Virus record (IMG/VR): IMGVR_UViG_3300027861_004152
Span: 1 to 37,465 of that record
Strand: one strand, 5' to 3'
DNA: 37,465 nt
Source: a virus
In this document: piece after piece, positions 2 through 26,793 of the stretch
Layout: each line of letters begins with the position of its first letter
How positions within the stretch are numbered: the stretch's first letter is position 1
Translations under genes and position numbers: made by a program
The notes under the pieces: model-generated
The model's database searches: none
What the model was told of the DNA's origin: nothing
What the model saw: the letters and a program-made list of their open reading frames with translations, nothing else

Positions 2-1246
2 GATTCCCTGGCTCAAACAGACCATTCTAGTGTTGACGGAATTATCGAATTCCAAAATGCTTGCGACAAATATGGTATTAATCCTATTACAGGATGCGAA
101 GCTTATATTGTTCCTGACATGCTCGTCAAAGAGACCCGCAAATATGGGCATATATCTATTTGGGTTAAGAACATAGATGGGTGGCATACGCTCCTACGAT
201 TGCTCACAGAGGCAAATCTAAATGGATTCTACTACAAACCTAGGATTGACTTCAAATCTCTTCTTGAAAGCGATCTTTCAGGATTGATTTTTGGGACCGC
301 ATGTGCAGGATCATTTCTACTTTTAGATGGCGGAGTAGAATTTCTCCAGGATCTTGAAAAGAAAGCAGAAGTTTATTACGAAATAATGCCACATCAAATT
401 GAAGTACAAGATACTATTCATGAATTTATGAAAGAGAATATAGGATTTGATCTTGACAAAGTAATAGCTACAAACGATTGTCATTATGTTAATGAAGATG
501 AGGCTATAATTCAAGAAATTCTTCTAGCTATTAATAGTAAAAAGAAATGGAGCGACCCTGAAAGGTGGTCTTTTGGTTTTGACGGTCTTTATCTAAGAAC
601 AAGAGATGAAATGAAAACTTCTCTTGAGAATTTAGATTTCTTTTCTGAAGAGGTGATAGAAGCTTCACTTAATAACACTCAAAAAATAGTAGATCAATGC
701 TCAGATTTTAGAATTCCAAAACAAGAAATATATCTTCCTATACCTCCTATGTTTGAAGGTATGGATGCAAATGATACTTTAAAAGATCTTTGTCTTAAAG
801 GATTGGAAGAGATTGGTCAAGCTGGTAACCCTATTTATAAAGAAAGATTAGAGGAGGAATATGAACTCATTAGTAGCAAGGACTTTTCGAAGTATTTTCT
901 TATCGTGTATGAACTTGTCAATTGGTGTGCAGAAAATAATGTTATGTGTGGGCCTGGAAGGGGTTGTTTCTTACCTGATTCTATTGTTGATCTCGTTTTA
1001 AACGATAAAATCATCAAGAAAAAAATACAAGATATAGAGATAGGGGATAAAGTTATTAGTCATGACGGAAGTATTCAATCTGTTATTAATACTTTAGAAT
1101 ATGATTGTGATGAAATTGTTTGTGAGATAGAAACCGAAGATGGAAGATTAATACAATGCACAAAAGATCATGAGATTTATACTAAAAATGGCTGGATAAA
1201 AGCTGCGGAATTGAAAGAAGGAGACGAGATAATAGATTTCAGATAA
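2..1246 (+). CDS. dnaE: DNA polymerase III alpha (DnaE), N-terminal extein plus N-half of a split intein (5' partial)
   Basis: The reading frame is open from base 2, so the true start lies upstream of the window. The first 321 visible residues are the PHP domain and start of the palm of a bacterial-type replicative polymerase: TDHSSVDG and GCEAY near the window start, ATNDCHY in the middle, ending in the DnaE motif GPGRG (950-964). Where DnaE continues with S-x-x-GS, this protein runs into a 93-residue N-intein starting at Cys (965) and stops at 1246. The missing continuation (SVGGSLLAYLLG) is at 2419. Product: the N-terminal polymerase half, expected to be joined to the C-half by protein trans-splicing. 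Confidence 0.93.
   Translation, partial: DSLAQTDHSSVDGIIEFQNACDKYGINPITGCEAYIVPDMLVKETRKYGHISIWVKNIDGWHTLLRLLTEANLNGFYYKPRIDFKSLLESDLSGLIFGTACAGSFLLLDGGVEFLQDLEKKAEVYYEIMPHQIEVQDTIHEFMKENIGFDLDKVIATNDCHYVNEDEAIIQEILLAINSKKKWSDPERWSFGFDGLYLRTRDEMKTSLENLDFFSEEVIEASLNNTQKIVDQCSDFRIPKQEIYLPIPPMFEGMDANDTLKDLCLKGLEEIGQAGNPIYKERLEEEYELISSKDFSKYFLIVYELVNWCAENNVMCGPGRGCFLPDSIVDLVLNDKIIKKKIQDIEIGDKVISHDGSIQSVINTLEYDCDEIVCEIETEDGRLIQCTKDHEIYTKNGWIKAAELKEGDEIIDFR
965..1243 (+). other. N-intein half (split intein in DnaE)
   Basis: 93 residues starting with Cys1 (CFLPDS, block A), with IGDKVISHDG and a block B of the form CTKDHEIYT (the conserved T-x-x-H), ending shortly after AAELKEGDEI at a stop codon. 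Length and block order match the N-terminal fragment of a natural split intein. There is no endonuclease domain in frame. Its C-terminal partner is encoded at 2242-2418. The insertion point lies between GPGRG and Ser of the polymerase catalytic region. Confidence 0.92.
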
Positions 1247-1272
1247 TTCCATTTTGTAGGGCATCTCCAATA

Positions 1273-1281
1273 TGGTATAAT
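1273..1281 (+). promoter_or_regulatory. Possible extended -10 promoter
   Basis: TGGTATAAT has the form TGnTATAAT just downstream of the N-intein stop and upstream of the endonuclease gene. No good -35 is visible at 17 bp. If active it would give the endonuclease, and possibly the C-half of the polymerase, their own transcript. Confidence 0.35.
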
Positions 1282-1288
1282 AGGCATA

Positions 1289-1366
1289 GCCAATAAAGTA
1301 GAATATAACTTTAAATATGTTTATTATACCCTTTTTAGGGATGATTAGGTAAGATACTTTATTGGC
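1289..1366 (+). ncRNA. Stem-loop region between the halves of the fractured gene
   Basis: A perfect 12-bp inverted repeat (GCCAATAAAGTA at 1289-1300, TACTTTATTGGC at 1355-1366) encloses about 54 nt that contain a smaller CCCT/AGGG hairpin near 1330. There is no run of T after the 3' arm, so it does not look like a simple terminator. It may be a leader structure for the endonuclease mRNA or the remnant of a larger element. Function unknown. Confidence 0.5.
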
Positions 1367-1429
1367 GTAAAATATCTAAGTTGTTATTTATCTAGTCGTT
1401 CTTGAAAAGGGTTTTTTATTGGAGTTGGT

Positions 1430-2368
1430 ATGAAAAAAGATAAAGAATGGTCATACAAAATAAGATTATCTAGATTATTGAAAAACAATCCAGAAAAAAT
1501 AGCCTTAAAAATGGCTAATGATGAGTCCTTGACAATAGAGGAATCTAAACTAGCAGCTAATAAATCTAAACATTTAGTTGGGTTTATTTGCTCAGAATGT
1601 AAAAAAGAATCTATTGTTCAAATAAGAAGATTGGCTAACAGACAACATGGTTTAGCGTACAAGCCTATTTGTAATAAATGTATTCTAAAAGTAGTAACAA
1701 ATACTGAAGGCTGGGTAAATAAAAATTCCAAGGCTCAAAAAATAGCACAGAATAAAGAATCGGTTAAAGAAAAACAAAGAATAGCTCAGAAAAAAGCACA
1801 TGAAAGAGACCCTTCTTTGACAGCAAGGAAGGCAGTTGGGTTGAGATTTGCCCAAACTCCAGAAGCAATAAAGAAAAGAATAGAAGCGCATAGAAAACGG
1901 ATGAGTAACGATCCTGACTATGCAAGAAAGTTCGCTCCGAAAGGATATGTTTCTGGATATATAAATGATATTTGGTTTGACAGTTCTTATGAACTTTTAT
2001 TCCTGATTCATTGTTTCGAAAAAGAAATAAAGGTTAAGAGATGCAAACTAAGAATCCCTTATGTCTTAGAAGGGAAAGCTAAAATGTATAACCCAGATTT
2101 TATTGTCGGTGATAAAATAATAGAATTAAAAGGTGCTAAACGAAAAGGCACAAGAAATAAGACTATAGCTGCTAATAAATATTGCAAAAACAACAATTTG
2201 GTTTACCAAATAATACATAGAAAGGAATTAGAGGCTAAAAAATGGTTCAAAAAACCAAACACGGATTTTCTATTAAAACAGAAGATAATATTTGTAAAGA
2301 ACAACGCAGTTATGCGGTGGTTAAAAAGGTTCGGTTTAAGCCACACAAAGGTAAAGTTCACGACATAA
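1430..2368 (+). CDS. Free-standing PD-(D/E)XK (Vsr-like) homing endonuclease
   Basis: 312 residues with a GGAG site 6 nt before ATG. Residues about 60-90 hold two CxxC pairs (SECKKE, CNKC) as a possible zinc ribbon. The basic middle looks like DNA-binding repeats. Residues about 180-235 form a nuclease core: FDSSYEL, then YNPDF, then IIELKG, i.e. the E, PD and ExK pattern of Vsr-related homing enzymes. It sits exactly between the two halves of a split intein, the arrangement described as fractured genes in phage metagenomes, where such an endonuclease mobilises the split locus. The last 127 bp overlap the start of the C-intein gene in another frame. Cleavage site unknown; the assignment is by motif. 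Confidence 0.8.
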   Translation: MKKDKEWSYKIRLSRLLKNNPEKIALKMANDESLTIEESKLAANKSKHLVGFICSECKKESIVQIRRLANRQHGLAYKPICNKCILKVVTNTEGWVNKNSKAQKIAQNKESVKEKQRIAQKKAHERDPSLTARKAVGLRFAQTPEAIKKRIEAHRKRMSNDPDYARKFAPKGYVSGYINDIWFDSSYELLFLIHCFEKEIKVKRCKLRIPYVLEGKAKMYNPDFIVGDKIIELKGAKRKGTRNKTIAANKYCKNNNLVYQIIHRKELEAKKWFKKPNTDFLLKQKIIFVKNNAVMRWLKRFGLSHTKVKFTT

Positions 2369-2418
2369 CTGTTGATAAGACTCATAGTTATAATATAGAA
2401 GGTCTTGGAGTTCACAAC
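2242..2418 (+). other. C-intein half (split intein in DnaE)
   Basis: The core is about 34 residues (block F: KVHDITVDKTHSY; block G: GLGVHN) immediately before Ser+1 of the DnaE C-extein. The upstream 25 residues overlap the endonuclease gene and are probably not needed for splicing. Its N-partner is 965-1243. Confidence 0.92.
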
Positions 2419-4677
2419 TCTGTTGGAGGCAGTCTCCTTGCTTATCTACTTGGCATTACCACTGTAGACCCTCTTAAATACGGATTGCTTTTCGCTAGAT
2501 TTATCAACGAAGAGAGATTAGACTATCCTGATATTGATCTTGATTTTGAAGATTGCAAAAGAGGATTAGTAAGAGAACATCTCCAGGATATTTATGGTGA
2601 AGAGAACATAGCAGGAGTTTCTACCTTTGGAACTATGAAAGGAAAATCTGCAATAAGAGATGTATCCAGAGTTTTTGATGTTCCCTATATGGATGTTGAT
2701 GAATTTGCCAAGATAGTTGAATATGAAGATCATATAGAAGAATGTGTTAAGTGGGCATCTAGAAATACAGAAGAGGGTATTAGATTTACTAATAAATATC
2801 CTGACATTGTTAAGTATGCTATCAAACTTGAAGGACAGGTAAGAAGTGCCGGTCAACACGCATCAGCTATTATAGTATCAGCAGAGCCTATCACGAATGG
2901 ATCAAGAGCGCATATAGTAAGACGTAAAGGTGTTAATGTCATAAATTGGTCGAAGGATGATGCAGAATATTGTGGGCTTATGAAGCTTGATGTGCTTGGG
3001 CTTAAAACGCTTTCTGTTCTGAATGAGGCGAAAGCCCTTATAAAAGAAAACCATAAAAAAGATGTAGATTTTAAGAGTTTACCCCTTGACAATGCAGGTA
3101 TTTATGATTACTTTAAGAGAGCGAAAAACGCTGGAGTGTTTCAGTTTAATACTGAAGGCGTTGGAGGCCTCTGCAAAAGAATCCTTCCTGAAAAATTCGG
3201 TCATCTAGTAGCAATAAATGCTCTATATCGTCCTGGAACATTAAGATCTGGAATGGTAGATGAGTATGTTGATCGACACAAATCTCAAGAATGGAAACAT
3301 AAAAACCCTGATTTACATGAATTAACAAAAGATACTTACGGTATTATTGTTTATCAAGAGCAAGTTATGCAAATAATGCACAAGTTGGCTGGATTGCCTT
3401 GGAAAGAAGCTGATAAGGTTCGTAAAATTATTGGTAAATCTAAGGGTGCTGATAAGCTAAAACCTTTCAAAGACGCATTTGTCGAGGGTTGCCATAGCCA
3501 GGGAACTATGAACAGAGCTGCTTCTACTCAATTATGGGAAGATATAGAGAGCTTCGGAGGTTATGGATTTAATTTATCTCACGCTGTAGAATACACAATG
3601 ATCTCTTATTGGTGTGCTTGGGCTAAATTCTATTATCCAGCTGAGTTTACTTGTGCAAGTCTTTCTTTTGGCCAAGATGATAAAAAAGAAGAGCTTATTA
3701 TAGAAGGTTTTAACAATGGCTTAAAGGCCCTACCTCCTAAAATTGGCAGATCAGATCCTTTGAAATGGACTACCAAGGATAACAATCTTTACTGTCCTTT
3801 TCTAGAGATAAAAGGGATAGGAGAGAAGAAAGCTCTTACTATCAAAGAGAATAAAAATAAAAAAGGATTTTTCAATAAGGATGGCAAGACAGAAAGTGCT
3901 TTGGGTAAACTACTCAAAACTATAGGAGCTTATGATTTAGATCACACTCCTGAAAATATTGCTGATTATCTTGCTTTTGATATTAATCAAGATCCTAAAA
4001 AGAAATTTCCATCTATGTATAAGTTTCTAGGTGAAGAGATTTACAATCATGATTTTGATTTGATTAGAAAAGGAGAAATCGGGTTTGATGGAGCGATAAA
4101 AACTAATTCGAGATACCGTGATGAAAGGGTTGCTGATTGTAGAAGATGTTCTCTTGCAGATGAATGTAAAGGTCCGAATCTTTCTTCTACTGGGAAGTAT
4201 AATGTCTGGATCTATGGAGAGTTTCCTGGATGGGATGATGAGAAAAGGAAGAAACCTTTATCTGGAAATGTAGGGAATAGTACTATATGGAAAGTTCTTG
4301 AGAAATACGAATTGAAAAGATCGATGTTTCATGTTTCTTATTTAGCAAAATGCTTTCCTAAACTTTCAAAAAAACCAAGAGTTGAGCATCTTAGTCAATG
4401 CAAAAAGTGGCTTGATTCTGAGTTAAGAACTTCTGATGCTAAAATAATTCTAGCGTTTGGAAACATAGGAATTCAAGCTTTTACTAATGATGTTGGCGGT
4501 ATAATGAAAAGGAATGGAACTACAGAATGGTCTGAGAAAGCACAAGCATGGATCTGTTGGTGTGTAAGTCCTTTTGCTTATTTCTTTGGGGATAATGAAG
4601 GTATTCATAATTTTGAAGTAGGAATTGAAAATTTTGTCAAAACTGTAAAAAGATTTCCTGGGTTTAATGAAATATGA
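2242..4677 (+). CDS. dnaE: C-half of split intein + DNA polymerase III alpha C-terminal part fused to a family-4 UDG-like domain
   Basis: 811 residues. Residues 1-59 are the C-intein ending in VHN, followed by Ser+1 (2419). The extein continues DnaE: catalytic D99-x-D101 in PDIDLDF, third Asp D250 in LMKLDVLGL, and a helix-hairpin-helix GIGEKK near 525. The usual OB-fold and tau-binding tail are absent. Instead residues about 630-811 form a UDG-superfamily domain: C633-x2-C636, GEFPG at 659, and C704-x15-C720 match the four 4Fe-4S cysteines and GE-x-PG motif of family-4 enzymes. The distal motif reads SPFAYFF rather than HP-x-YLL, so glycosylase activity is doubtful. Alternative start: GTG at 2317. 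The stop overlaps the next gene (ATGA). Confidence 0.9.
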   Translation: MVQKTKHGFSIKTEDNICKEQRSYAVVKKVRFKPHKGKVHDITVDKTHSYNIEGLGVHNSVGGSLLAYLLGITTVDPLKYGLLFARFINEERLDYPDIDLDFEDCKRGLVREHLQDIYGEENIAGVSTFGTMKGKSAIRDVSRVFDVPYMDVDEFAKIVEYEDHIEECVKWASRNTEEGIRFTNKYPDIVKYAIKLEGQVRSAGQHASAIIVSAEPITNGSRAHIVRRKGVNVINWSKDDAEYCGLMKLDVLGLKTLSVLNEAKALIKENHKKDVDFKSLPLDNAGIYDYFKRAKNAGVFQFNTEGVGGLCKRILPEKFGHLVAINALYRPGTLRSGMVDEYVDRHKSQEWKHKNPDLHELTKDTYGIIVYQEQVMQIMHKLAGLPWKEADKVRKIIGKSKGADKLKPFKDAFVEGCHSQGTMNRAASTQLWEDIESFGGYGFNLSHAVEYTMISYWCAWAKFYYPAEFTCASLSFGQDDKKEELIIEGFNNGLKALPPKIGRSDPLKWTTKDNNLYCPFLEIKGIGEKKALTIKENKNKKGFFNKDGKTESALGKLLKTIGAYDLDHTPENIADYLAFDINQDPKKKFPSMYKFLGEEIYNHDFDLIRKGEIGFDGAIKTNSRYRDERVADCRRCSLADECKGPNLSSTGKYNVWIYGEFPGWDDEKRKKPLSGNVGNSTIWKVLEKYELKRSMFHVSYLAKCFPKLSKKPRVEHLSQCKKWLDSELRTSDAKIILAFGNIGIQAFTNDVGGIMKRNGTTEWSEKAQAWICWCVSPFAYFFGDNEGIHNFEVGIENFVKTVKRFPGFNEI

Positions 4678-6297: not shown

Positions 6298-7293
6298 ATG
6301 GCAAAAAAGATGAGTAAAAGAGAGCAGATGAAACAAGATCTAGTCAAGAGGAATCAGGAAGCAGAGAAGACAAATGATAACTTTGGCGGGACTTTCAACA
6401 ACAGCGTTATGGTTGATAATCTTAAGATGTGGAAGTGTGGTGAGGATGAGCATATCGTAGATATAATTCCTTATCAGGTTGGAGCCAATCATCCAAACCC
6501 AAATATCAAGGAAGGAGAATGGTCTTACTACTTTGAGTTTTTCGCTCATTATAATGTTGGACCAATGCAGGATCAGTTTATCTGCCTTAAGGAGACATTC
6601 AACAAGAAGTGTCCTATTTGTGAGCAGAAGATGGCCCTTATGAGGCAAGAGAATTACGATGAGGATGAGGTTAAGTCTCTTCGTGCTAAGAAGAGAACTC
6701 TTTATAACATTGTTTGTTATGATACTCCTGATGAAGAGGCAAAGGGCAATCAGGTATGGCATGTAGCACATTGGTATATGCAGAAGAATATTGTACCCCT
6801 GGCCAAGAATAAAAGGACCGGTGCTTGTATTGCTTTTGCCGATCCAGATGAGGGTAAGTCTATCCAGTTTTCTCGTCAGGGTACTGGTCAGACTGGTAAG
6901 TATCTAGGTCATGTTTTTCTTGATCGTGAGGATGCAGATGGAAATAAGTATATCATTTCTGATGAGCTGCTTGAGTCAGCAGTAAGGCTTGAGGAGTGTA
7001 TTAAGGAGCCTACTTATGATGAGGTTGCCAAAGCCTTTTATGGTCAGGAAGAGGTTCCAAATGATGATGCTGCAGAGGAAGCCGTAACAAAGACTCCAGG
7101 TAGAAGGACTCCTACTAAACCAGTTGCTGTAGAAGAGCAGGAAGAGGTTTCAGAGGCTATTATTTGCCCTGCAGGAGGAACTTATGGAGATGATCTAAGT
7201 ACTCTTCCTGAATGTGATGATTGTGAGAGTTGGGATGATTGTCGTGCTTCAAATGCTGAGTCAAAAGCAGAGGAGAAGGCTTCAGACGAGTAA
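6298..7293 (+). CDS. gp32-like single-stranded DNA-binding protein
   Basis: 331 residues with AAAGGAGAG before ATG. The basic N-terminus (KKMSKREQMKQDL) resembles the cooperative-binding region. The core contains H84, C96, C105 and C108 (ICLKETFNKKCPIC), matching the zinc site of T4 gp32 (His, C-x9-C-x2-C) with one residue less in the spacer. The tail is acidic, as in gp32, and also carries a second Cys group (C290, C306, C309, C315) not present in T4 gp32. It coats ssDNA at forks and recombination intermediates. It is placed between the UvsY-like and UvsX-like genes. Confidence 0.85.
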   Translation: MAKKMSKREQMKQDLVKRNQEAEKTNDNFGGTFNNSVMVDNLKMWKCGEDEHIVDIIPYQVGANHPNPNIKEGEWSYYFEFFAHYNVGPMQDQFICLKETFNKKCPICEQKMALMRQENYDEDEVKSLRAKKRTLYNIVCYDTPDEEAKGNQVWHVAHWYMQKNIVPLAKNKRTGACIAFADPDEGKSIQFSRQGTGQTGKYLGHVFLDREDADGNKYIISDELLESAVRLEECIKEPTYDEVAKAFYGQEEVPNDDAAEEAVTKTPGRRTPTKPVAVEEQEEVSEAIICPAGGTYGDDLSTLPECDDCESWDDCRASNAESKAEEKASDE

Positions 7294-7305
7294 AATTAAC
7301 ATCAG

Positions 7306-7348
7306 AGCTGTCTAGAGTTTTCTGCCTCCCATTTTTCTCTAGGCAGCT
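7306..7348 (+). promoter_or_regulatory. Stem-loop 1 upstream of the recombinase gene
   Basis: AGCTGTCTAGAG (7306-7317) pairs with CTCTAGGCAGCT (7337-7348): 12 bp including one G-U pair, around a 19-nt loop. It lies 13 nt after the ssDNA-binding-protein stop. No U-tract follows directly. Possible mRNA stabiliser, processing site or weak terminator. Confidence 0.55.
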
Positions 7349-7352
7349 ATTC

Positions 7353-7369
7353 TAGTCATTTTATGACTA
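7353..7369 (+). promoter_or_regulatory. Stem-loop 2 upstream of the recombinase gene
   Basis: TAGTCAT and ATGACTA form a 7-bp stem with a 3-nt T loop. The in-frame ATG at 7363 lies inside this stem and is not taken as the start. Confidence 0.45.
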
Positions 7370-7371
7370 AG

Positions 7372-7400
7372 CCCGACCCTAATTACTTTTTGGGGTCGGG
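7372..7400 (+). promoter_or_regulatory. Stem-loop 3 (GC-rich) upstream of the recombinase gene
   Basis: CCCGACCC (7372-7379) and GGGTCGGG (7393-7400) form a perfect 8-bp GC-rich stem with a T-rich 13-nt loop, ending 8 nt before the AAGGA ribosome binding site. In this AT-rich genome such a stem is conspicuous. It could attenuate readthrough from the abundant ssDNA-binding-protein mRNA. Confidence 0.6.
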
Positions 7401-9395: not shown

Positions 9396-9505
9396 ATTAA
9401 TTTGGGGGTGATTAGCCTAATTGAGGCAGAAGGCAATATAGTGCGCCGTTGGGTTGTGGCCCCAATGTTATTGGATGCAAGTTCCAACTGTCTCCCCAAA
9501 TTAAT
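9396..9505 (+). ncRNA. Structured RNA closed by a 12-bp helix, possibly Y-RNA-like
   Basis: attaatttgggg (9396-9407) and ccccaaattaat (9494-9505) pair perfectly over 12 bp. Inside are successive hairpins: GCCT/AGGC near 9414, GGC/GCC, TTGGG/CCCAA, and a T-arm-like TTGGA-TGCAAGT-TCCAA near 9474-9490. The last resembles the TGCAAAT T-loops of the tRNA-like RNAs at 10088 and 12144. No ORF or terminator pattern fits. The strand is assumed from neighbouring genes. Confidence 0.6.
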
Positions 9506-9650: not shown

Positions 9651-9710
9651 AGAATGACTGCAGCAAACACATAAAACTTTCTATTTAGAAGAAATTTAAA
9701 TGTCATTCTG
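9651..9710 (+). ncRNA. Four-copy RNA element, copy 1
   Basis: Outer stem AGAATGAC/GTCATTCT (8 bp), CAGCAA at 9661-9666, inner hairpin TTTCT/AGAAA, AAAT before the 3' arm, and a G directly after it. The same design recurs at 9760, 10422 and 11932 with compensatory changes. Function unknown. Confidence 0.75.
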
Positions 9711-9722
9711 AAAATTAAAATC

Positions 9723-9751
9723 TTGACAAATCGAAAAGGATAAAGTATAAT
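9723..9751 (+). promoter_or_regulatory. Sigma70-type promoter P2 for the tRNA cluster
   Basis: TTGACA (9723-9728), 17-bp spacer, TATAAT (9746-9751): a consensus promoter. The start site is predicted near 9758-9760, so the transcript would begin with RNA element copy 2 and then run into the tRNAs. Confidence 0.85.
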
Positions 9752-9759
9752 GCTTTTAA

Positions 9760-9815
9760 AGAATGATTACAGCAATTAAAAATTTTCTATTTAAAGAAAC
9801 CGAAATACCATTCTG
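9760..9815 (+). ncRNA. Four-copy RNA element, copy 2 (at the predicted 5' end of the tRNA transcript)
   Basis: Outer stem AGAATG/CATTCT, CAGCAA at 9770-9775, inner hairpin TTTCT/AGAAA, AAAT before the 3' arm, terminal G. It begins within about 2 nt of the start site predicted from P2, so it may cap the tRNA precursor. Confidence 0.75.
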
Positions 9816-9829
9816 TATAGTAATAATTT

Positions 9830-9905
9830 AGCGGGGTCTAGTAACGGTTAGCTGACGAGGCTCATATCCTCGGTTTTACGGGTTCGAATCCCGTCCCCGC
9901 TTCCA
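9830..9905 (+). tRNA. tRNA with CAT anticodon (Met or Ile2)
   Basis: Full cloverleaf: acceptor AGCGGGG/CCCCGCT, D-arm with GG, anticodon stem CGAGG/CCTCG, loop CTCATAT (anticodon CAT), T-arm ACGGG-TTCGAAT-CCCGT, encoded CCA. The paired first base argues against an initiator tRNA. The discriminator is T, unusual for Met or Ile tRNAs. Whether C34 is modified to lysidine (Ile) cannot be seen. Confidence 0.93.
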
Positions 9906-9909
9906 AAAT

Positions 9910-9993
9910 GTCTGGGTATACGAATTGGTATAGCAACCTGCCTTAGAAGCAGGGTCTTTAGGCGTGAGAGTTCGAGTCTCTCCCTGGACACCA
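9910..9993 (+). tRNA. tRNA-Leu (TAG)
   Basis: Acceptor GTCTGGG/CCTGGAC (two G-U pairs), anticodon stem CCTGC/GCAGG with loop CTTAGAA (anticodon TAG), a long class II variable region, T-arm GAGAG-TTCGAGT-CTCTC, A73 and encoded CCA. The D-stem is weak in the standard register. Confidence 0.88.
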
Positions 9994-10005
9994 AAAAGAT
10001 TTCAT

Positions 10006-10067
10006 CTGTGTGTAGCTCCGTCTGGAGCGGAGGGGTTTCGAAGGTTCAAATCCTCCCACACAGACCA
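10006..10067 (+). ncRNA. Short tRNA-like RNA lacking an anticodon arm
   Basis: Acceptor CTGTGTG/CACACAG, D-arm-like GCTCC/GGAGC with a 4-nt loop, a T-arm region with TTCAAAT and CCTCC, A73 and an encoded CCA; only 62 nt in total. GGAGG (near 10029) could also pair with CCTCC across a larger loop. There is no room for a standard anticodon stem-loop, so it cannot decode as a normal tRNA. It is either a decayed tRNA or a tRNA mimic like its neighbours. Confidence 0.65.
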
Positions 10068-10087
10068 ACAAAAGTTTATAAAATCAA

Positions 10088-10206
10088 GGCTAAGTGGCGA
10101 AATATAAACGCAGATTCAATAGGGGTAACTCCTAAATATGCTTTGGGTCGAACACGGTGACAGCATTAACTTGTGTTCATGTAAGGTGCAAATCCTTACC
10201 TTAGTC
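10088..10206 (+). ncRNA. tRNA-like RNA with extended centre, Y RNA (YrlA-like) candidate
   Basis: Acceptor GGCTAAG/CTTAGTC (extendable by two A-T pairs), TG, D-arm GCG/CGC enclosing AAATATAAA, and a T-arm GTAAGG-TGCAAAT-CCTTAC with an unusual T-loop. In place of an anticodon arm there are about 70 nt with competing helices (ATGCT/AGCAT; GAACAC/GTGTTC) and GGGTCGAACAC. Bacterial and phage Y RNAs of the YrlA class are known to have a tRNA-like domain and to be encoded beside Ro60; a Ro60-like gene starts 293 bp downstream. The Y RNA identity is inference. Confidence 0.65.
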
Positions 10207-10208
10207 TT

Positions 10209-10277
10209 TCTCGGTTAGTTTAGCGGAGAAAACGCCCCTATGAGGGGGAATCATCAGTTCGAATCTGATGCCGAGAA
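10209..10277 (+). ncRNA. tRNA-like RNA with reduced anticodon hairpin
   Basis: Acceptor TCTCGGT/GCCGAGA, D-arm GTTT-AGCGGAG-AAAC, T-arm ATCAG-TTCGAAT-CTGAT. Between the D- and T-arms are only 19 nt, including CCCCTATGAGGGG, which folds as a 4-5 bp stem with a 3-5 nt loop instead of the 7-nt anticodon loop. No CCA is encoded. It starts 2 nt after the preceding tRNA-like RNA. It cannot present a standard anticodon. Confidence 0.65.
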
Positions 10278-10289
10278 AACAAATTTTAC

Positions 10290-10412
10290 AGCAAGGTGGC
10301 CAAATTGGTAAAGGCAACGGTATGGAAAATAAAAATCTGGCATAAGATTTTTTACCGCAATCAAACCTAATGGAACCGTGTTTTGTGGGTTCGAATCCCA
10401 CCCTTGCGACCA
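10290..10412 (+). ncRNA. tRNA-like RNA with a 53-nt anticodon loop, CCA encoded
   Basis: Acceptor AGCAAGG/CCTTGCG (1-72 mismatched), D-arm with GCC/GGC and GG, anticodon stem ACGGT/ACCGT (10317-10321, 10375-10379), a five-base variable region, T-arm GTGGG-TTCGAAT-CCCAC, A73 and CCA. The anticodon loop is 53 nt instead of 7 and holds an 8-bp hairpin (AAAAATCT/AGATTTTT). If 46 nt were removed, the loop would read ATGGAAA (anticodon GGA, Ser), but a Ser tRNA should have a long variable arm. Options: an intron-like insertion or another Y-RNA-like mimic. Confidence 0.65.
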
Positions 10413-10421
10413 TTTTTAATA

Positions 10422-10479
10422 AGATTGAATTCAGCAACTATAAATAATCAACTGTTAATTGATAATATTAATCAATCTG
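10422..10479 (+). ncRNA. Four-copy RNA element, copy 3 (in the leader of the Ro60-like gene)
   Basis: Outer stem AGATTGA/TCAATCT, CAGCAA at 10432-10437, inner hairpin ATCAA/TTGAT, terminal G. It ends about 9 nt before the AAGGAG of the Ro60-like gene, so it forms the 5' leader of that gene or a processing boundary after the tRNA cluster. Confidence 0.75.
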
Positions 10480-10498
10480 TAAATTTAAGGAGAGCAAA

Positions 10499-11926
10499 AT
10501 GAGAGCAAGCGCAACTACAAATGAAGGAGCAGCATGTTACGACCACAGCATGAATCATTCACTTGAATTCTTTTCAAAAGCAGGATCTTTATTCATTAAG
10601 AAAGGAGCTTTCTACGGAAACGAGGCTACTGCTTTAGGGTTATTTAAGAACTCTTGGTTTGCTGATAATGAGATCTCAATGAGGCTTCTTTTCTGGCTTC
10701 GTGATTGTCGTGGTGGAGCAGGTAATCGAAGTGGTTTTAGAAGTTGTTTAACATGGCTTGCAGATGCAGACCCAAGATGGATCTTAAAGAATATTTATCT
10801 TGTTCCTGAATGTGGAAGATGGGACGATCTAAGATCCTTATTCGGAACTACTTTAGAATTAGATGCTTCTATTTTTTGGGCTGCAGCAATAAAGAGCGGA
10901 AACACACTTGCTGCTAAGTGGGCTGATAGAAAAGACTATCCTATCCGAAAAGTATTTGGAATGAAGATAGGAGAATTTAGACGTTATCTTGCTGATTGTA
11001 GAAAAAACAGTATTGTTGAAAACAACATGTGCAAGAAAGAATGGAGAGAAATAACTTATTCTCACGTTCCTTCTGTTGCTATGGCAAGATACACAAATGC
11101 TTTTGGTAGAAATGATGAAAAAAGATTTGAAGCTTATAAAGAAGGCCTAACTTGCAAAACAGAAAAAGTAAATGCTTCGGTTCTGTTCCCTCATGATTGT
11201 GTGAGGACTGCAAGGTCTGGCGATGCAGTTATTGCGGATGCTCAGTTCGATGTTCTTCCTAATTATATGGAAGGTGTTGATGAAAGAGTTATCGCTCTTT
11301 GCGATACTTCAGAATCTATGCAGTGCATAGTAAGTGGCTCAGTCCAGGCTATTGATATCTCTAAAGGATTAGCTCTTTATTGTTCTGAGAAAATTGGAGA
11401 AGATAATCCTTTTTATCGTAAATTTATTGCTTTTGAATCTGAATCAAAATTTGTAGATTGGGAGGGGATGAAGTTTTCTGACACGCTTCATGATCATAGA
11501 ATTTTCAATGGTGCTTGTGGGATGACAAGAATAGATAAAGCTCTTGATCTTATTTTAGATTCTGCAAAGATGTGGAATGTTGAGAATAATAAAATGCCTA
11601 CTTCTTTACTGATCGCTTCTGATATGCAATTTACTCAGGGAGTAACGGCAGGTCATAGATATGGTTGGAGCGACGAGAATGGAGTCAACACTGTGATTGA
11701 AAAGGCTCTTATGAGGTGGGATGAAGCAGGTTACAAACGCCCTAAAATCATTTATTGGAATCTTGCTGGGTATAGTGGCTCACCAGCAACCAATCAACAC
11801 CAAGATGTGGCACTTGTTTCTGGTTTCTCACCTTCTATTCTGAAAGCAGTATTTGATGGGACTGATCTTACTCCTGAAGGAGTAATGATGAGAGCTATTG
11901 AGAAGTATGATATAGTAAGACCATAA
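10499..11926 (+). CDS. Ro60-like RNA-binding protein (TROVE/DUF2828-type HEAT repeats + vWFA domain)
   Basis: 475 residues with AAGGAG before ATG. The N-terminus (TTNEGAACY, then LEFFSKAG) and LRDCRGGAGNRSGF followed by CGRWDDLRSLFG match the helical-repeat domain of the TROVE/DUF2828 group. The C-terminal vWFA domain has a MIDAS: DTSES (D269-x-S-x-S), GMTRID, and ASDMQF (D375). Ro60/Rsr proteins are rings that bind Y RNAs and misfolded RNAs, and in Deinococcus work with polynucleotide phosphorylase. tRNA-like RNAs on both sides support a Ro60-type role. The choice between TROVE proper and DUF2828 is uncertain by eye. RNA element copies lie immediately before and after the gene. Confidence 0.75.
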   Translation: MRASATTNEGAACYDHSMNHSLEFFSKAGSLFIKKGAFYGNEATALGLFKNSWFADNEISMRLLFWLRDCRGGAGNRSGFRSCLTWLADADPRWILKNIYLVPECGRWDDLRSLFGTTLELDASIFWAAAIKSGNTLAAKWADRKDYPIRKVFGMKIGEFRRYLADCRKNSIVENNMCKKEWREITYSHVPSVAMARYTNAFGRNDEKRFEAYKEGLTCKTEKVNASVLFPHDCVRTARSGDAVIADAQFDVLPNYMEGVDERVIALCDTSESMQCIVSGSVQAIDISKGLALYCSEKIGEDNPFYRKFIAFESESKFVDWEGMKFSDTLHDHRIFNGACGMTRIDKALDLILDSAKMWNVENNKMPTSLLIASDMQFTQGVTAGHRYGWSDENGVNTVIEKALMRWDEAGYKRPKIIYWNLAGYSGSPATNQHQDVALVSGFSPSILKAVFDGTDLTPEGVMMRAIEKYDIVRP

Positions 11927-11931
11927 TTATA

Positions 11932-11995
11932 AGAGTGAGTTCAGCAAAACCTAAAATACTCAAATTCAAACTTTGACTAAATTTAAATCACTCTG
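11932..11995 (+). ncRNA. Four-copy RNA element, copy 4 (after the Ro60-like gene)
   Basis: Outer stem AGAGTGA/TCACTCT, CAGCAA at 11942-11947, inner hairpin TCAAA/TTTGA, AAAT before the 3' arm, terminal G. It starts 6 nt after the Ro60-like stop and ends 6 nt before the next tRNA-like RNA. Confidence 0.75.
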
Positions 11996-12000
11996 TTTAT

Positions 12001-12118
12001 AGTAAGGGTTTTGATACAAACGGATTAGGCTATTTGTTTTGGGTTCGATCCCCTAATAGATTTAACGATCTATAATGTTGGAAGGATAGTCAGAGTAGGT
12101 TCGATTCCTACCTTAACT
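12001..12118 (+). ncRNA. Degenerate tRNA-like RNA with two T-arm-like motifs
   Basis: A perfect T-arm GTAGG-TTCGATT-CCTAC (12095-12111) is followed by CTTAACT, which pairs with AGTAAGG at 12001-12007 apart from one A-A mismatch. The centre contains a second GGGTTCGATCCC, an ATTAGG/CCTAAT helix and a TAGAT/ATCTA hairpin, but no anticodon arm. It is either another Y-RNA-like mimic or the remains of two fused tRNAs. Confidence 0.45.
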
Positions 12119-12143: not shown

Positions 12144-12302
12144 AGCTGTGTGGCGGAATAGGTAGTCGCTAGGGCAACATGGATAATCTTACTGATAGTG
12201 TACATTGGTAAGTGGGCCATTTTCGGGGAAGAACCGATAACCTTAGATAGTGCAAATGTACACCCTCACTATTATGTAGAGTGCAAATCTCTACCACATG
12301 CT
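12144..12302 (+). ncRNA. tRNA-like RNA with long central helix, Y RNA candidate
   Basis: Acceptor AGCTGTG pairs with CACATGCT with one bulged T. It is followed by TG and a D-arm GCG-GAATAGGTAGT-CGC. The T-arm is GTAGAG-TGCAAAT-CTCTAC, with the same odd T-loop as 10088-10206. The centre has a 9-bp perfect helix GTGTACATT/AATGTACAC (12198-12206, 12255-12263) that can extend through ATAGTG/CACTAT by way of a bulge, and an inner TCGG/CCGA hairpin. A long bulged helix replacing the anticodon arm is what a Ro60-binding module would look like; this is inference. Confidence 0.6.
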
Positions 12303-12321
12303 AATAAATACAAAGGAATAT

Positions 12322-13932
12322 ATGCCTACAAAAAAGAAAACAACAACAACAACTACGAAAAAGAAAAATTATACTGGTATCTCTATTTCGGCAAGAAAAG
12401 CAAAAGGTAGAAGACTACAGCAATGGGCTTGCAAGCAGATATCGGAGTTACTTGGATTACCATGGGGTTATGAAGAGGCAATTCGTCCAGCCTTAATGGG
12501 TGAAAGTGGTGTTGATGTTAAACTTGTAGGAGAAGCAAAGAAGCGATTCCCCTTTGCTATCGAATGCTTTGGGGAATCGACCTTAATATTAACAAAAGAA
12601 GGGTATAAAAAAATAAAAGATGTTGAAGTTGGAGATAAAGTTTTAACCCACAAAGGTCGTTTTAGAAAAGTCAAAGATGTTTTTTCCAGAATAACGAACG
12701 AGTCTTTATTGCTAAAAGCAAAGCATCTTAATGAGAAAATACATTGCACAAAAAACCATCCTTTTGAATCTTTTTCTAATGATTGGATTGATGCTGATTC
12801 TATATCTCACGTTTCTCATTTTTGCAAAACAAACGACGTGTATAATTATGATATAAAAAGACTTGAAATATGGGATAAAAACAAACTAGCAAAAAATAAA
12901 GAAATCGATCAAGATCATATTCTATGTGCTTGTGGGTGTAATACAAAAATAAAAAAGTACGATAAGAAGGGTAGGCCTGTTAGATATTTGAAGGGTCATC
13001 AAGGCTCTATTCCTAAAAACAGGGATATACCAAAAGCGGTAGTTGTTGATAAGTCTTTATTGTATTTATTTGGGTTTTATATTGCGGAAGGGCATATTGA
13101 CAAAAAAAGAACACGGGTTGTTTGGACTTTTAATAAAAATGAAATAGATTATATTAATGATGTAAAATCTATCTGTAAAAAGAAGTTTAATATAGATATT
13201 AAAACCACGCAAACAAATGATTCAGAAGCCATAAACTTAATTGCTAATTCTTCTATACTTGCAAAATTCTTTATCAAAATTTTAGGCACTGGAAGCAAAA
13301 ACAAAAAAATCGGAGCTTTTATTTTTTTGCATAAAAAGAGATTAATCCCTTTAATAAGAGGGTATTTTTACGGAGATGGATGCATCAGAAGTGATTTTGC
13401 TAGATGTGAAACAGTAAGTAGGAATTTAGCTTATGAAATACAGTTCTGTCTACTTAAATTTGGTATTTTTAGCTCTATCACAAAGGCAAAAAACAAAATT
13501 GATAATCATAATGATTTATATTCTGTTCTGATTTCAAAAAGTAGTTTAAATAGATTTCTTTTTATTTTAGAAAACGACAATATAAAAGATTGCCCCGACA
13601 TAAATACTTCTGAAAATTATGATATTGTTTATGATTTAAAAAGACAGCGTATTTTTTCACAAATAGAAAAAAAAGAATCTGTAGAAGCAAAAACAAGAGT
13701 TTATAATCTTACCGTAGAAGAGGATGAAACTTATATTGTTGAGGGGAGTATTGTTGTTCATAATTGTAAGAATTGTGAGCAATGGGGAGTTGCTAAGTTT
13801 ATCGAACAGGCAAAAGATAATCAATCTGAAGAAACGGATTGGTTAGTAATTATGAAAAAAAACAATCATGAAGAGGTAGTCGTTATTGATGCTAAAGTTT
13901 TCTTTAATTTATTAAAAAAGTTGAAACCATGA
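12322..13932 (+). CDS. PD-(D/E)XK nuclease interrupted by a LAGLIDADG intein
   Basis: Start at 12322 (AAGGA upstream); an ATG at 12298 lies inside the preceding RNA. 536 residues before splicing. The exteins (81 + 55 residues) make a small protein: a Thr/Lys-rich head, GRRLQQWACK, then SGVDVKL and FAIECKNCEQW, i.e. the D...ExK core of a PD-(D/E)XK nuclease. Its place among recombination genes suggests a structure-specific or junction nuclease, but the substrate is unknown. The 400-residue intein separates the catalytic Glu from Cys-Lys, so the precursor should be inactive until splicing. The stop overlaps the Rad50-like gene by 4 bp. Confidence 0.78.
   Translation: MPTKKKTTTTTTKKKNYTGISISARKAKGRRLQQWACKQISELLGLPWGYEEAIRPALMGESGVDVKLVGEAKKRFPFAIECFGESTLILTKEGYKKIKDVEVGDKVLTHKGRFRKVKDVFSRITNESLLLKAKHLNEKIHCTKNHPFESFSNDWIDADSISHVSHFCKTNDVYNYDIKRLEIWDKNKLAKNKEIDQDHILCACGCNTKIKKYDKKGRPVRYLKGHQGSIPKNRDIPKAVVVDKSLLYLFGFYIAEGHIDKKRTRVVWTFNKNEIDYINDVKSICKKKFNIDIKTTQTNDSEAINLIANSSILAKFFIKILGTGSKNKKIGAFIFLHKKRLIPLIRGYFYGDGCIRSDFARCETVSRNLAYEIQFCLLKFGIFSSITKAKNKIDNHNDLYSVLISKSSLNRFLFILENDNIKDCPDINTSENYDIVYDLKRQRIFSQIEKKESVEAKTRVYNLTVEEDETYIVEGSIVVHNCKNCEQWGVAKFIEQAKDNQSEETDWLVIMKKNNHEEVVVIDAKVFFNLLKKLKP
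12565..13764 (+). other. Intein with LAGLIDADG homing endonuclease domain
   Basis: 400 residues in frame. Cys1 (CFGEST, block A), HCTKNHPF (block B), two LAGLIDADG helices (LFGFYIAEGHI and LIRGYFYGDGCI), a Cys-rich patch CACGC before the first, block F TRVYNLTVEED and block G VVHN followed by Cys+1. All splicing residues appear present. It sits exactly at the E|CK catalytic motif of the host nuclease. Confidence 0.93.
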
Positions 13933-25119: not shown

Positions 25120-26079
25120 ATGAACGTATTGATAACTGGCGGAACAGGCAGTCTTGGAAAAACTCTTGTCAAGCTCTTGCTGCCACGAATAAATGTAGAT
25201 CGAATTGTTATCTATTCCAGGGACGAATTGAAACAGTGGGAAATGCAAAAAAACTTTAATGATCCTAAACTAAGATATTTCATCGGTGATGTTAGAGATC
25301 TTTCTAGATTAGATAGAGCTATGAAAGGAATTGATGTTGTTATCCATACCGCAGCTATGAAGCAAGTTCCTGCTTGTGAATACCAACCTTTCGAAGCAGT
25401 GAAAACGAATATCATAGGTGCTCAAAACGTTATAGATACTAGTATTTCAAATGAAGTGGCTAGGGTTATAGCTCTTAGTACAGATAAGGCTGTAGATCCG
25501 GTAAATCATTATGGTGCTACAAAAAAGACAGCTGAAGGTTTATTTATTGCCGGTAATGTTTGTGGTAATAAAAAGACTATTTTTTCAAATGTTCGTTATG
25601 GAAATGTTTTAGCAAGTAGAGGCTCTGTTGTTCAACTCTTTAAAGAGCAAGCAGAGACAGGCCGAATAACCATCACTGACCCCAGGATGACAAGGTTCTG
25701 GTGGACTCTTGACGAAGCTGCTAATTTCGTCTTAGATTGTCTTCTTTTTATGAAAGGTGGTGAGACCTTCGCTCCTAAGATAAAAGCTTCCTCTCTGCTT
25801 GATTTGGCAGCTTGTGTTGCTCCTCAAGCAAAATATGAGACTATTGGGATTAGACCTGGAGAAAAATTACATGAAATACTTATTTCCCCTCATGAAGTTG
25901 AGAAAACATATAATCTCTATTGGGGTGCTTATGCGGTTTATCCTGAGTTTCCTTTTTTTAGTTTCCCTGATTATAATAGAGATAATCCTGTTTTGCTAGA
26001 ATTCAAATATACTTCTGATGCTGAAGAGTTTGTTATGACAAAAGAAGAACTAAACACTCTAATCAAAAAGGTTTTATAA
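25120..26079 (+). CDS. PseB-like UDP-GlcNAc 4,6-dehydratase (SDR)
   Basis: 319 residues from the ATG at 25120 (AAAGGAGAAC upstream). Extended SDR: GGTGSLG NAD-binding loop, AAMKQVPACEYQPFEA, LSTDKAVDP, YGATKK (catalytic Tyr and Lys), RYGNVLASRGSV and RPGEKLHEIL. These are the signatures of the inverting PseB/FlaA1-type dehydratase that makes the 4-keto-6-deoxy sugar used by PseC. It sits one gene upstream of a cytidylyltransferase. Confidence 0.9.
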   Translation: MNVLITGGTGSLGKTLVKLLLPRINVDRIVIYSRDELKQWEMQKNFNDPKLRYFIGDVRDLSRLDRAMKGIDVVIHTAAMKQVPACEYQPFEAVKTNIIGAQNVIDTSISNEVARVIALSTDKAVDPVNHYGATKKTAEGLFIAGNVCGNKKTIFSNVRYGNVLASRGSVVQLFKEQAETGRITITDPRMTRFWWTLDEAANFVLDCLLFMKGGETFAPKIKASSLLDLAACVAPQAKYETIGIRPGEKLHEILISPHEVEKTYNLYWGAYAVYPEFPFFSFPDYNRDNPVLLEFKYTSDAEEFVMTKEELNTLIKKVL

Positions 26080-26793
26080 ATGAAAGACGATTTAGAAGAG
26101 GTGATCTTAATTGTTCCTGCTAAGGGAACGAGCACCAGGGTGCTTAAAAAAAACATGAGATATGTAGGAAGGAAAAGACTTTGGCAACATGCGGTAGAAA
26201 GATGTTTGGATTCTAGAATAGGAGATACTTATTTAAGCACTGAATCAGAAGAACTATGGGAACAAGCAACTCTTGAGACTTCTTATGTAGGATTGAGATT
26301 GATAGCAAGAGAGAAAAGTTTATCTCAAGATAATACCAGGGCGGTTGATGTTTGTCTTGATGTTATAAAAAATACAGAAGTAATTGATAAGAAAATATAC
26401 ACAACTATGATTCTGACTCTACCTACTTCTCCATTAGCTGACGCAATTGATCTTGTCAAGGCTTATCAATTTTTCTTACAAAATTATAGAAAACCTGTTA
26501 TGAGTGTTAATAAAGTAGAAGGTAATCCTGGGTTAAGTTTAGCAAAAACAAAAAATGATAGAGTTTATATCCAAAACGAAAACTGGCAAGAATTGAATAA
26601 TTATCACTACCGCTGTAATGGTGCTGTTTTTATTTGTGATATCAAATCTTTTCAAGAAGAAAAAGAATTTTATATGAAAGATCTTATTGGTTTTGAAATG
26701 CCCGAAGATAGAGGATTAGATATTAATACTCCTTTTGATCTGAAGGTTGCAAATCTTTTATGGAGAGAGAAAAATGAAAATAGTTCTAATTAA
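26080..26793 (+). CDS. CMP-sialic/pseudaminic acid cytidylyltransferase-like (PseF/NeuA family)
   Basis: 237 residues starting one base after the PseB-like stop. ILIVPAKGTSTRVLKKNMR is the nucleotide-binding loop (variant of AR-x-GSKR-x-P-x-KN), with TLPTSPL, RCNGAVFI and EDRGLDINTPFD in the usual order. It would activate a nonulosonic acid with CTP. PseI and PseG equivalents are not in this window. Confidence 0.82.
   Translation: MKDDLEEVILIVPAKGTSTRVLKKNMRYVGRKRLWQHAVERCLDSRIGDTYLSTESEELWEQATLETSYVGLRLIAREKSLSQDNTRAVDVCLDVIKNTEVIDKKIYTTMILTLPTSPLADAIDLVKAYQFFLQNYRKPVMSVNKVEGNPGLSLAKTKNDRVYIQNENWQELNNYHYRCNGAVFICDIKSFQEEKEFYMKDLIGFEMPEDRGLDINTPFDLKVANLLWREKNENSSN

Follow-up and report, generated by a model that had tools for sequence, protein, structure and literature searches.

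A family of CAGCAA stem elements beside DUF2828-type Ro60-like genes of phages and bacteria, with a putative Y-RNA-like role

Four element copies and a Ro60-like gene in a virus record

The window analysed here is a 37,465-base virus record (IMG/VR record IMGVR_UViG_3300027861_004152), on the + strand of which lie a Ro60-like gene (10499..11926, 475 amino acids, aa) and four copies of a short stem element. A tRNA cluster (9830..10412, + strand) stands between copies 2 and 3. The architecture common to the four copies is a stem of 7 base pairs (bp), a spacer of three bases (NNN), the hexamer CAGCAA, a loop, the second stem arm and a trailing G. The original prediction for this DNA had placed such copies at 9651-9710, 9760-9815, 10422-10479 and 11932-11995, with a shared outer stem, CAGCAA just inside it and a G after the 3' arm; all four were recovered at these places with these features. 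The seven pairs follow the consensus AGANTGA/TCANTCT, and the fourth one is A-U, A-U, U-A and G-C in copies 1 to 4, respectively, which are the compensatory changes that had been claimed.

Copy 1 (9651..9710, on the + strand as are the others) has its 5' arm at 9651-9657, CAGCAA at 9661-9666, the end of its 3' arm at 9709 and the G at 9710; its stem extends to 8 pairs with C9658, and its inner hairpin is TTTCT/AGAAA. Copy 2 (9760..9815; CAGCAA at 9770-9775, G at 9815) pairs AGAATG with CATTCT, i.e. six pairs plus a mismatch, and ends 15 nucleotides (nt) before the start of tRNA-Met (9830). Copy 3 (10422..10479; AGATTGA/TCAATCT, CAGCAA at 10432-10437) lies in the leader of the Ro60-like gene, 10 nt past the last tRNA and with its end 19 nt upstream of the ATG, and copy 4 (11932..11995; AGAGTGA/TCACTCT, CAGCAA at 11942-11947) starts 6 nt past the stop codon of this gene. 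None of the copies overlaps a gene, and their predicted intergenic position thus holds. As for the borders that they were thought to mark, copies 3 and 4 do follow the tRNAs and the Ro60-like gene, respectively, but copies 1 and 2 both precede the first tRNA.

As a whole, the descriptor of the element matches four times on the + strand of the window and never on the - strand, while 200 dinucleotide shuffles averaged 0.06 matches per window and never exceeded one. The folding energy of single copies is only marginally better than that of shuffled sequences and does not distinguish them; the case therefore rests on comparison rather than on folding energy. At gathering score, Rfam found only tRNAs in the window and no family at the element sites, in line with the earlier statement that no known family was matched. 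An inner hairpin is present in the four copies (4/4) and a tRNA-like loop domain in none (0/4). This hairpin, which had been described as part of the element, is less general than supposed, being optional in relatives: it was found in 29/58, 10/46 and 50/91 short elements, vs. 14, 7.5 and 27 in shuffled loops.

Concerning the protein, only Pfam DUF2828 and DUF7788 were matched at E ≤ 0.001, with no match to Pfam TROVE (PF05731). An AlphaFold2 model was obtained with a mean predicted local distance difference test (pLDDT) of 80 and a predicted template modelling score (pTM) of 0.78, and the top ten Foldseek matches of this model were all Ro60/Rsr. The VIA Z ranged from 13.6 to 18.8 against Ro60 chains (388-411 residues aligned), vs. 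10.6 for the best unrelated chain. Judged from the model, the protein has the Ro60/TROVE fold, i.e. a helical-repeat ring followed by a von Willebrand factor A (vWA) domain.

A covarying family linked to DUF2828 genes

IMG/VR was scanned for the exact pattern, any base being allowed at one stem position, and 56 stretches were obtained. The free pair was complementary in about 44 of the 56, with A-U, U-A, G-C and C-G all represented. Nearly all these matches are located within tRNA clusters or immediately flank, on one side or the other, a frame of 465-480 aa, which is the Ro60-like gene, and they share the strand of both the tRNAs and this frame. About 33 of the contigs hold a DUF2828 gene within the stretch taken, and all remaining element-bearing contigs longer than 30 kb hold one elsewhere, even kilobases off as in PX29, vs. 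none of ten chance-match contigs. A covariance model reached copies of unrelated stem sequence (e.g. AGGGTCA/TGACCCT, AGTATCA/TGATACT and AGGATCG/CGATCCT), and whole virus records were found to carry one to six copies.

Since selection on the element itself was to be avoided, loci were also sampled by protein: an alignment of Ro60-like proteins used as query gave 80 viral and 80 cellular loci. A query with the window protein alone found no matches among viral contigs, and blastn of the consensus element against phages returned mostly chance matches. At the sampled loci, every hexamer located 3 nt inside any perfect 7-bp stem near a DUF2828 gene was then counted, no motif being assumed. The top hexamer was CAGCAA, at 41 of the 80 viral and 66 of the 80 cellular loci; the next hexamers reached 5-7, and CAGCAA on the opposite strand was found at one locus. 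In loci devoid of CAGCAA, the same count gave no variant motif beyond rare CAGCAG, CAGCAT, CAGCGA and CCGCAA. Strict elements numbered 43 on the gene strand vs. 0 on the opposite one at viral loci (permuted motifs average 0.07), and 196 vs. 8 at cellular loci (permuted motifs average 9.3). Altogether, 392 elements were gathered, among which the 5' arm takes 162 different sequences. Many further covarying copies in related genomes, which the original prediction had named beforehand as what to look for, were thus obtained from the covariance model and the protein-first loci.

Elements were also picked with no other criterion than their three outer pairs and the trailing G; in 42/63 and 98/127 of these, the four inner pairs were Watson-Crick throughout. 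Several pair types occur per position, with all four at pair 4 and a wide variety at pairs 6 and 7. Because the inner pairs covary in elements picked on the outer ones, the stem is, on this comparative evidence, a structure under selection.

The cellular loci belong mostly to Clostridia and other Firmicutes, and also to Chloroflexi and one Woesearchaeota contig. As a control, seven Clostridia-class genomes with Pfam TROVE were inspected, and an element was found ≤1.5 kb from the gene in one of them, a small sample. From these alignments and counts, the elements form a real family with a covarying stem, located on the gene strand, found specifically together with DUF2828-type Ro60 genes and having a tRNA-like loop in some members.

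Three observations concern individual loci. In L004, L007 and L031, the Ro60-like gene is in two frames (about 165 + 380 aa), an element preceding or overlapping each half, and L036 shows the larger half of such a split gene. L011 (G002; reverse complement, 6513-7395) has a DUF2828 protein that is divergent, with 21% identity to that of the window, and six elements just upstream of it, the spacer of which is mostly NAA. One viral contig with three elements also carries a group I intron (L032:4112-4333, - strand, 90.9 bits).

Loop contents and placement

A T arm was found in the loop of about 60 elements. In phages, the order within the loop is T arm, acceptor, short link, acceptor and D arm, which is a permuted tRNA core as in YrlA; examples are L023:8795-8893, mycobacteriophage LeBron (L235:4480-4602), a Felix-type phage (L236:6385-6511) and EfV12 (L238:3251-3373). 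Clostridial loops are unpermuted: a D arm is followed by an anticodon-like arm and a T arm, and the element stem replaces the acceptor. Several RNAs with tRNA-like loops scored 28-45 bits with the Rfam model of YrlA (RF02553), the gathering cut-off of which is 69. Other loops contain a small hairpin alone, or enclose the start codon of the Ro60-like gene together with its ribosome-binding site. Introns and degenerate tRNAs were considered as well and ruled out: most loops lack tRNA features, yet CAGCAA is constant.

At cellular loci, 42 elements overlap the start codon or end ≤60 nt from it, and the element encloses both the ATG of the Ro60-like gene and its ribosome-binding site in L003, L015 and L025, with the Shine-Dalgarno sequence AAAGGA(G) overlapping CAGCAA in L003 and L015. 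Together with copy 3 of the window, located in the gene leader, these cases would suit an autoregulatory site of the Ro60-like mRNA that acts in cis only and from which no free RNA is made. We regard such an exclusive operator as unlikely, as most copies are off the start: 134 cellular elements lie 60-1500 nt upstream in tandem arrays (only one is inside the gene), 43 viral copies lie downstream of the gene, and PX29, KVP40, L023 and L054 have copies within tRNA arrays distant from it. Moreover, tRNA-like loop domains would be senseless for an operator. Autoregulation by those copies that do cover the gene start is, from their position, probable.

Isolate phages of Felix O1 type and those infecting Listeria, mycobacteria (LeBron), Campylobacter, Enterococcus and Staphylococcus have two to four copies each beside the gene. 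Many phage copies stand between tRNAs on the same strand, and those of the window border a tRNA cluster, as would be the case for a processing or stability signal of phage tRNA transcripts with no relation to the Ro60-like protein. This general role, which the original prediction had listed, is not supported and seems distinctly improbable: in bacterial genomes, copies precede DUF2828 genes at places that lack a normal tRNA array, and the presence of the element tracks the Ro60-like gene. Another listed role, that of a small-molecule sensor (riboswitch), could be suggested by the conserved loop and the leader placement; it is not supported and is scarcely credible in view of the tandem arrays of two to nine copies with free-form loops upstream of cellular DUF2828 genes, the downstream and tRNA-array copies, and the single partner gene family.

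Relation to known Ro60 systems and proposed role

The Y RNAs of Ro60, a major autoantigen in humans, are to our knowledge known in detail in few bacteria. The locus described here is of this already known kind, Y RNAs beside Ro60. Like YrlA with Rsr/Ro60, the elements are encoded beside a Ro60-fold protein, a stem joins the RNA ends, several occur per locus, and the variable loop holds, in some of them, a tRNA-like D/T/acceptor domain, permuted in the phage elements (YrlA/Rsr features according to Chen 2013, Chen 2014 and Wang 2018, as cited in PMC8394870 and PMC7790460). The partners differ, DUF2828/DUF7788 for the element vs. Pfam TROVE for YrlA; many elements, window copies included, have no tRNA domain, and those of Clostridia carry an unpermuted tRNA body, unlike YrlA. 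In vertebrate Y RNA, the Ro60 site includes a seven-base-pair helix beside an asymmetric loop or bulge (PMC4726728). The elements share with it (RF00019) a helix of this length and the asymmetric loop or bulge beside it, and differ in the loop motif, with no sequence similarity and no Rfam match found. Two of the structures that match the window protein best are the Ro60 dimer of Thermus phage phiLo (PDB 9l5y) and the TROVE protein 9kop, which share the Ro60 fold; both are named TROVE-domain proteins in PDB and have 14-17% identity to the window protein over the alignment.

Putative Y RNAs of mycobacteriophages are mentioned by Chen 2014, as cited in PMC12282133. LeBron has three elements directly beside its DUF2828-type gene, one of them with a permuted tRNA core. 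Its protein gp53 and CKA15_055 of Listeria phage CKA15 are both DUF2828-type; overproduced gp53 was reported toxic in M. smegmatis (PMC13148394), and CKA15_055, a homologue of the window protein, was detected in purified Listeria phage particles (PMC12282133). In the literature examined, DUF2828 appeared in plant papers only. The element family is very large and apparently undescribed: neither Rfam nor the literature examined has its closing motif, its DUF2828 partner, the multiple copies in tRNA arrays, the tRNA cargo in unpermuted order or the copies at the start site, although a partial earlier description is possible.

The interpretation to which we give a probability of roughly 0.82 is that the elements are minimal Y-RNA-like modules, stem and CAGCAA forming the putative binding site of the Ro60-like protein encoded between the copies, for which they would act as ligands or tethers. 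A ligand role headed the three originally suggested, and co-occurrence with the gene in phages and bacteria, the Ro60 fold and the YrlA-like tRNA mimic in some loops argue for it. The Ro60-like protein would bind the 7-bp stem and the CAGCAA side loop of RNAs that tRNA processing may release from the tRNA transcript or that may originate in the gene leader. Such free RNAs could gate or tether the Ro60 ring, as Y RNAs do, and guide it in the quality control of RNA or tRNA in the infected cell, while tRNA-like versions might recruit tRNA-binding partners or serve as decoys for tRNA-cutting enzymes. Through copies over or next to its start site, the protein could repress its own synthesis. For the window, this would mean RNAs, free or linked to tRNA, from copies 1, 2 and 4, and a regulatory function for copy 3, whose end is 19 nt short of the start codon.

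Several observations weigh against a Y-RNA-like module. The YrlA consensus is CgaAUGC / AcUuGucG, and the elements have instead NNN-CAGCAA inside a 7-bp stem and a 3' G; the gathering score of RF02553 (69 bits) was reached nowhere, the window giving no match. The strict form of the element was not found at about 35 of the 80 viral loci, and Milchi (L060), XbC2 (L061) and pEa_SNUABM_49 (L062) have a DUF2828 gene with no recognisable adjacent CAGCAA element; the RNA partner of these three proteins, if any, has another motif or another place. The three elements of cka15 (25,289-25,552) lie outside the strongest non-coding transcripts reported for this phage (26,236-26,727; PMC12282133). Lastly, an enrichment of G-U pairs in the stem, sought as proof of RNA pairing, was not seen: G-U pairs are scarce.

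An inverted repeat acting at the DNA level, be it a transposon end, a recombination site or an operator for a dimeric DNA-binding protein, would give the same picture of nearly all Watson-Crick pairs, and would likewise be multi-copy and intergenic. It is nonetheless very improbable given the strict gene-strand orientation (43 vs. 0 and 196 vs. 8), the asymmetry of CAGCAA, present on one side only, the tRNA-like folds in the loops, and the fact that no transposase or target duplications were seen. Strand bias, one-sided motif and tRNA-like loops together argue for an RNA element.

Beyond the Y-RNA-like role itself, we lean towards a wider view, in which DUF2828-type Ro60 and the CAGCAA RNAs would constitute a second, separate Ro60/Y-RNA lineage, found in phages, in bacteria and perhaps in archaea. 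The stem that binds the protein would there be constant and the loop cargo exchangeable, ranging from nothing to a permuted tRNA core, a tRNA body in unpermuted order or a start codon, so that one module could work as free tether RNA, tRNA mimic or decoy, or autoregulatory switch. If true, a simple rule (7-bp stem, NNN, CAGCAA, G) would provide RNA partners for hundreds of Ro60-like proteins whose sole annotation is DUF2828, among them those of phages that are already well studied (Felix O1 type, Listeria P100/A511 type, LeBron, KVP40 and PX29). It would also explain unannotated gaps beside phage tRNA arrays, and would open to direct test, in laboratory phages, the old question of how Ro60 and Y RNA serve a phage.

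The strongest non-coding transcripts of CKA15 were suggested to be Y RNA or small interfering RNA (PMC12282133). Their identity with the elements was ruled out, as the coordinates differ and the counterpart in Listeria phage LP-083-2 matches ROOL RNA. This match (L234:2429-2980) scores 87.4 bits, the gathering score being 99.1; the corresponding region of cka15 (OR088597, about 26,195-26,746) covers the top non-coding transcripts.

As for the other features of the window, the tRNA cluster comprises tRNA-Met, tRNA-Leu, odd tRNA-like genes and a tRNA at 10290-10409, the anticodon loop of which has an insert of about 23 nt. Odd tRNA-like genes were noted at 9396-9505, 10004-10066, 10089-10207, 10290-10409, 12004-12117 and 12145-12296; among them, one has a 12-bp extended closing stem, one lacks the anticodon arm, two, 3' of the Ro60-like gene, are degenerate, and a further one has a long insert. 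Finally, the translations point to intein-like insertions (Hint-type sequence) in a DNA polymerase III alpha-like gene (119-4677) and in the frame that follows the tRNA-like region (12298-13932).

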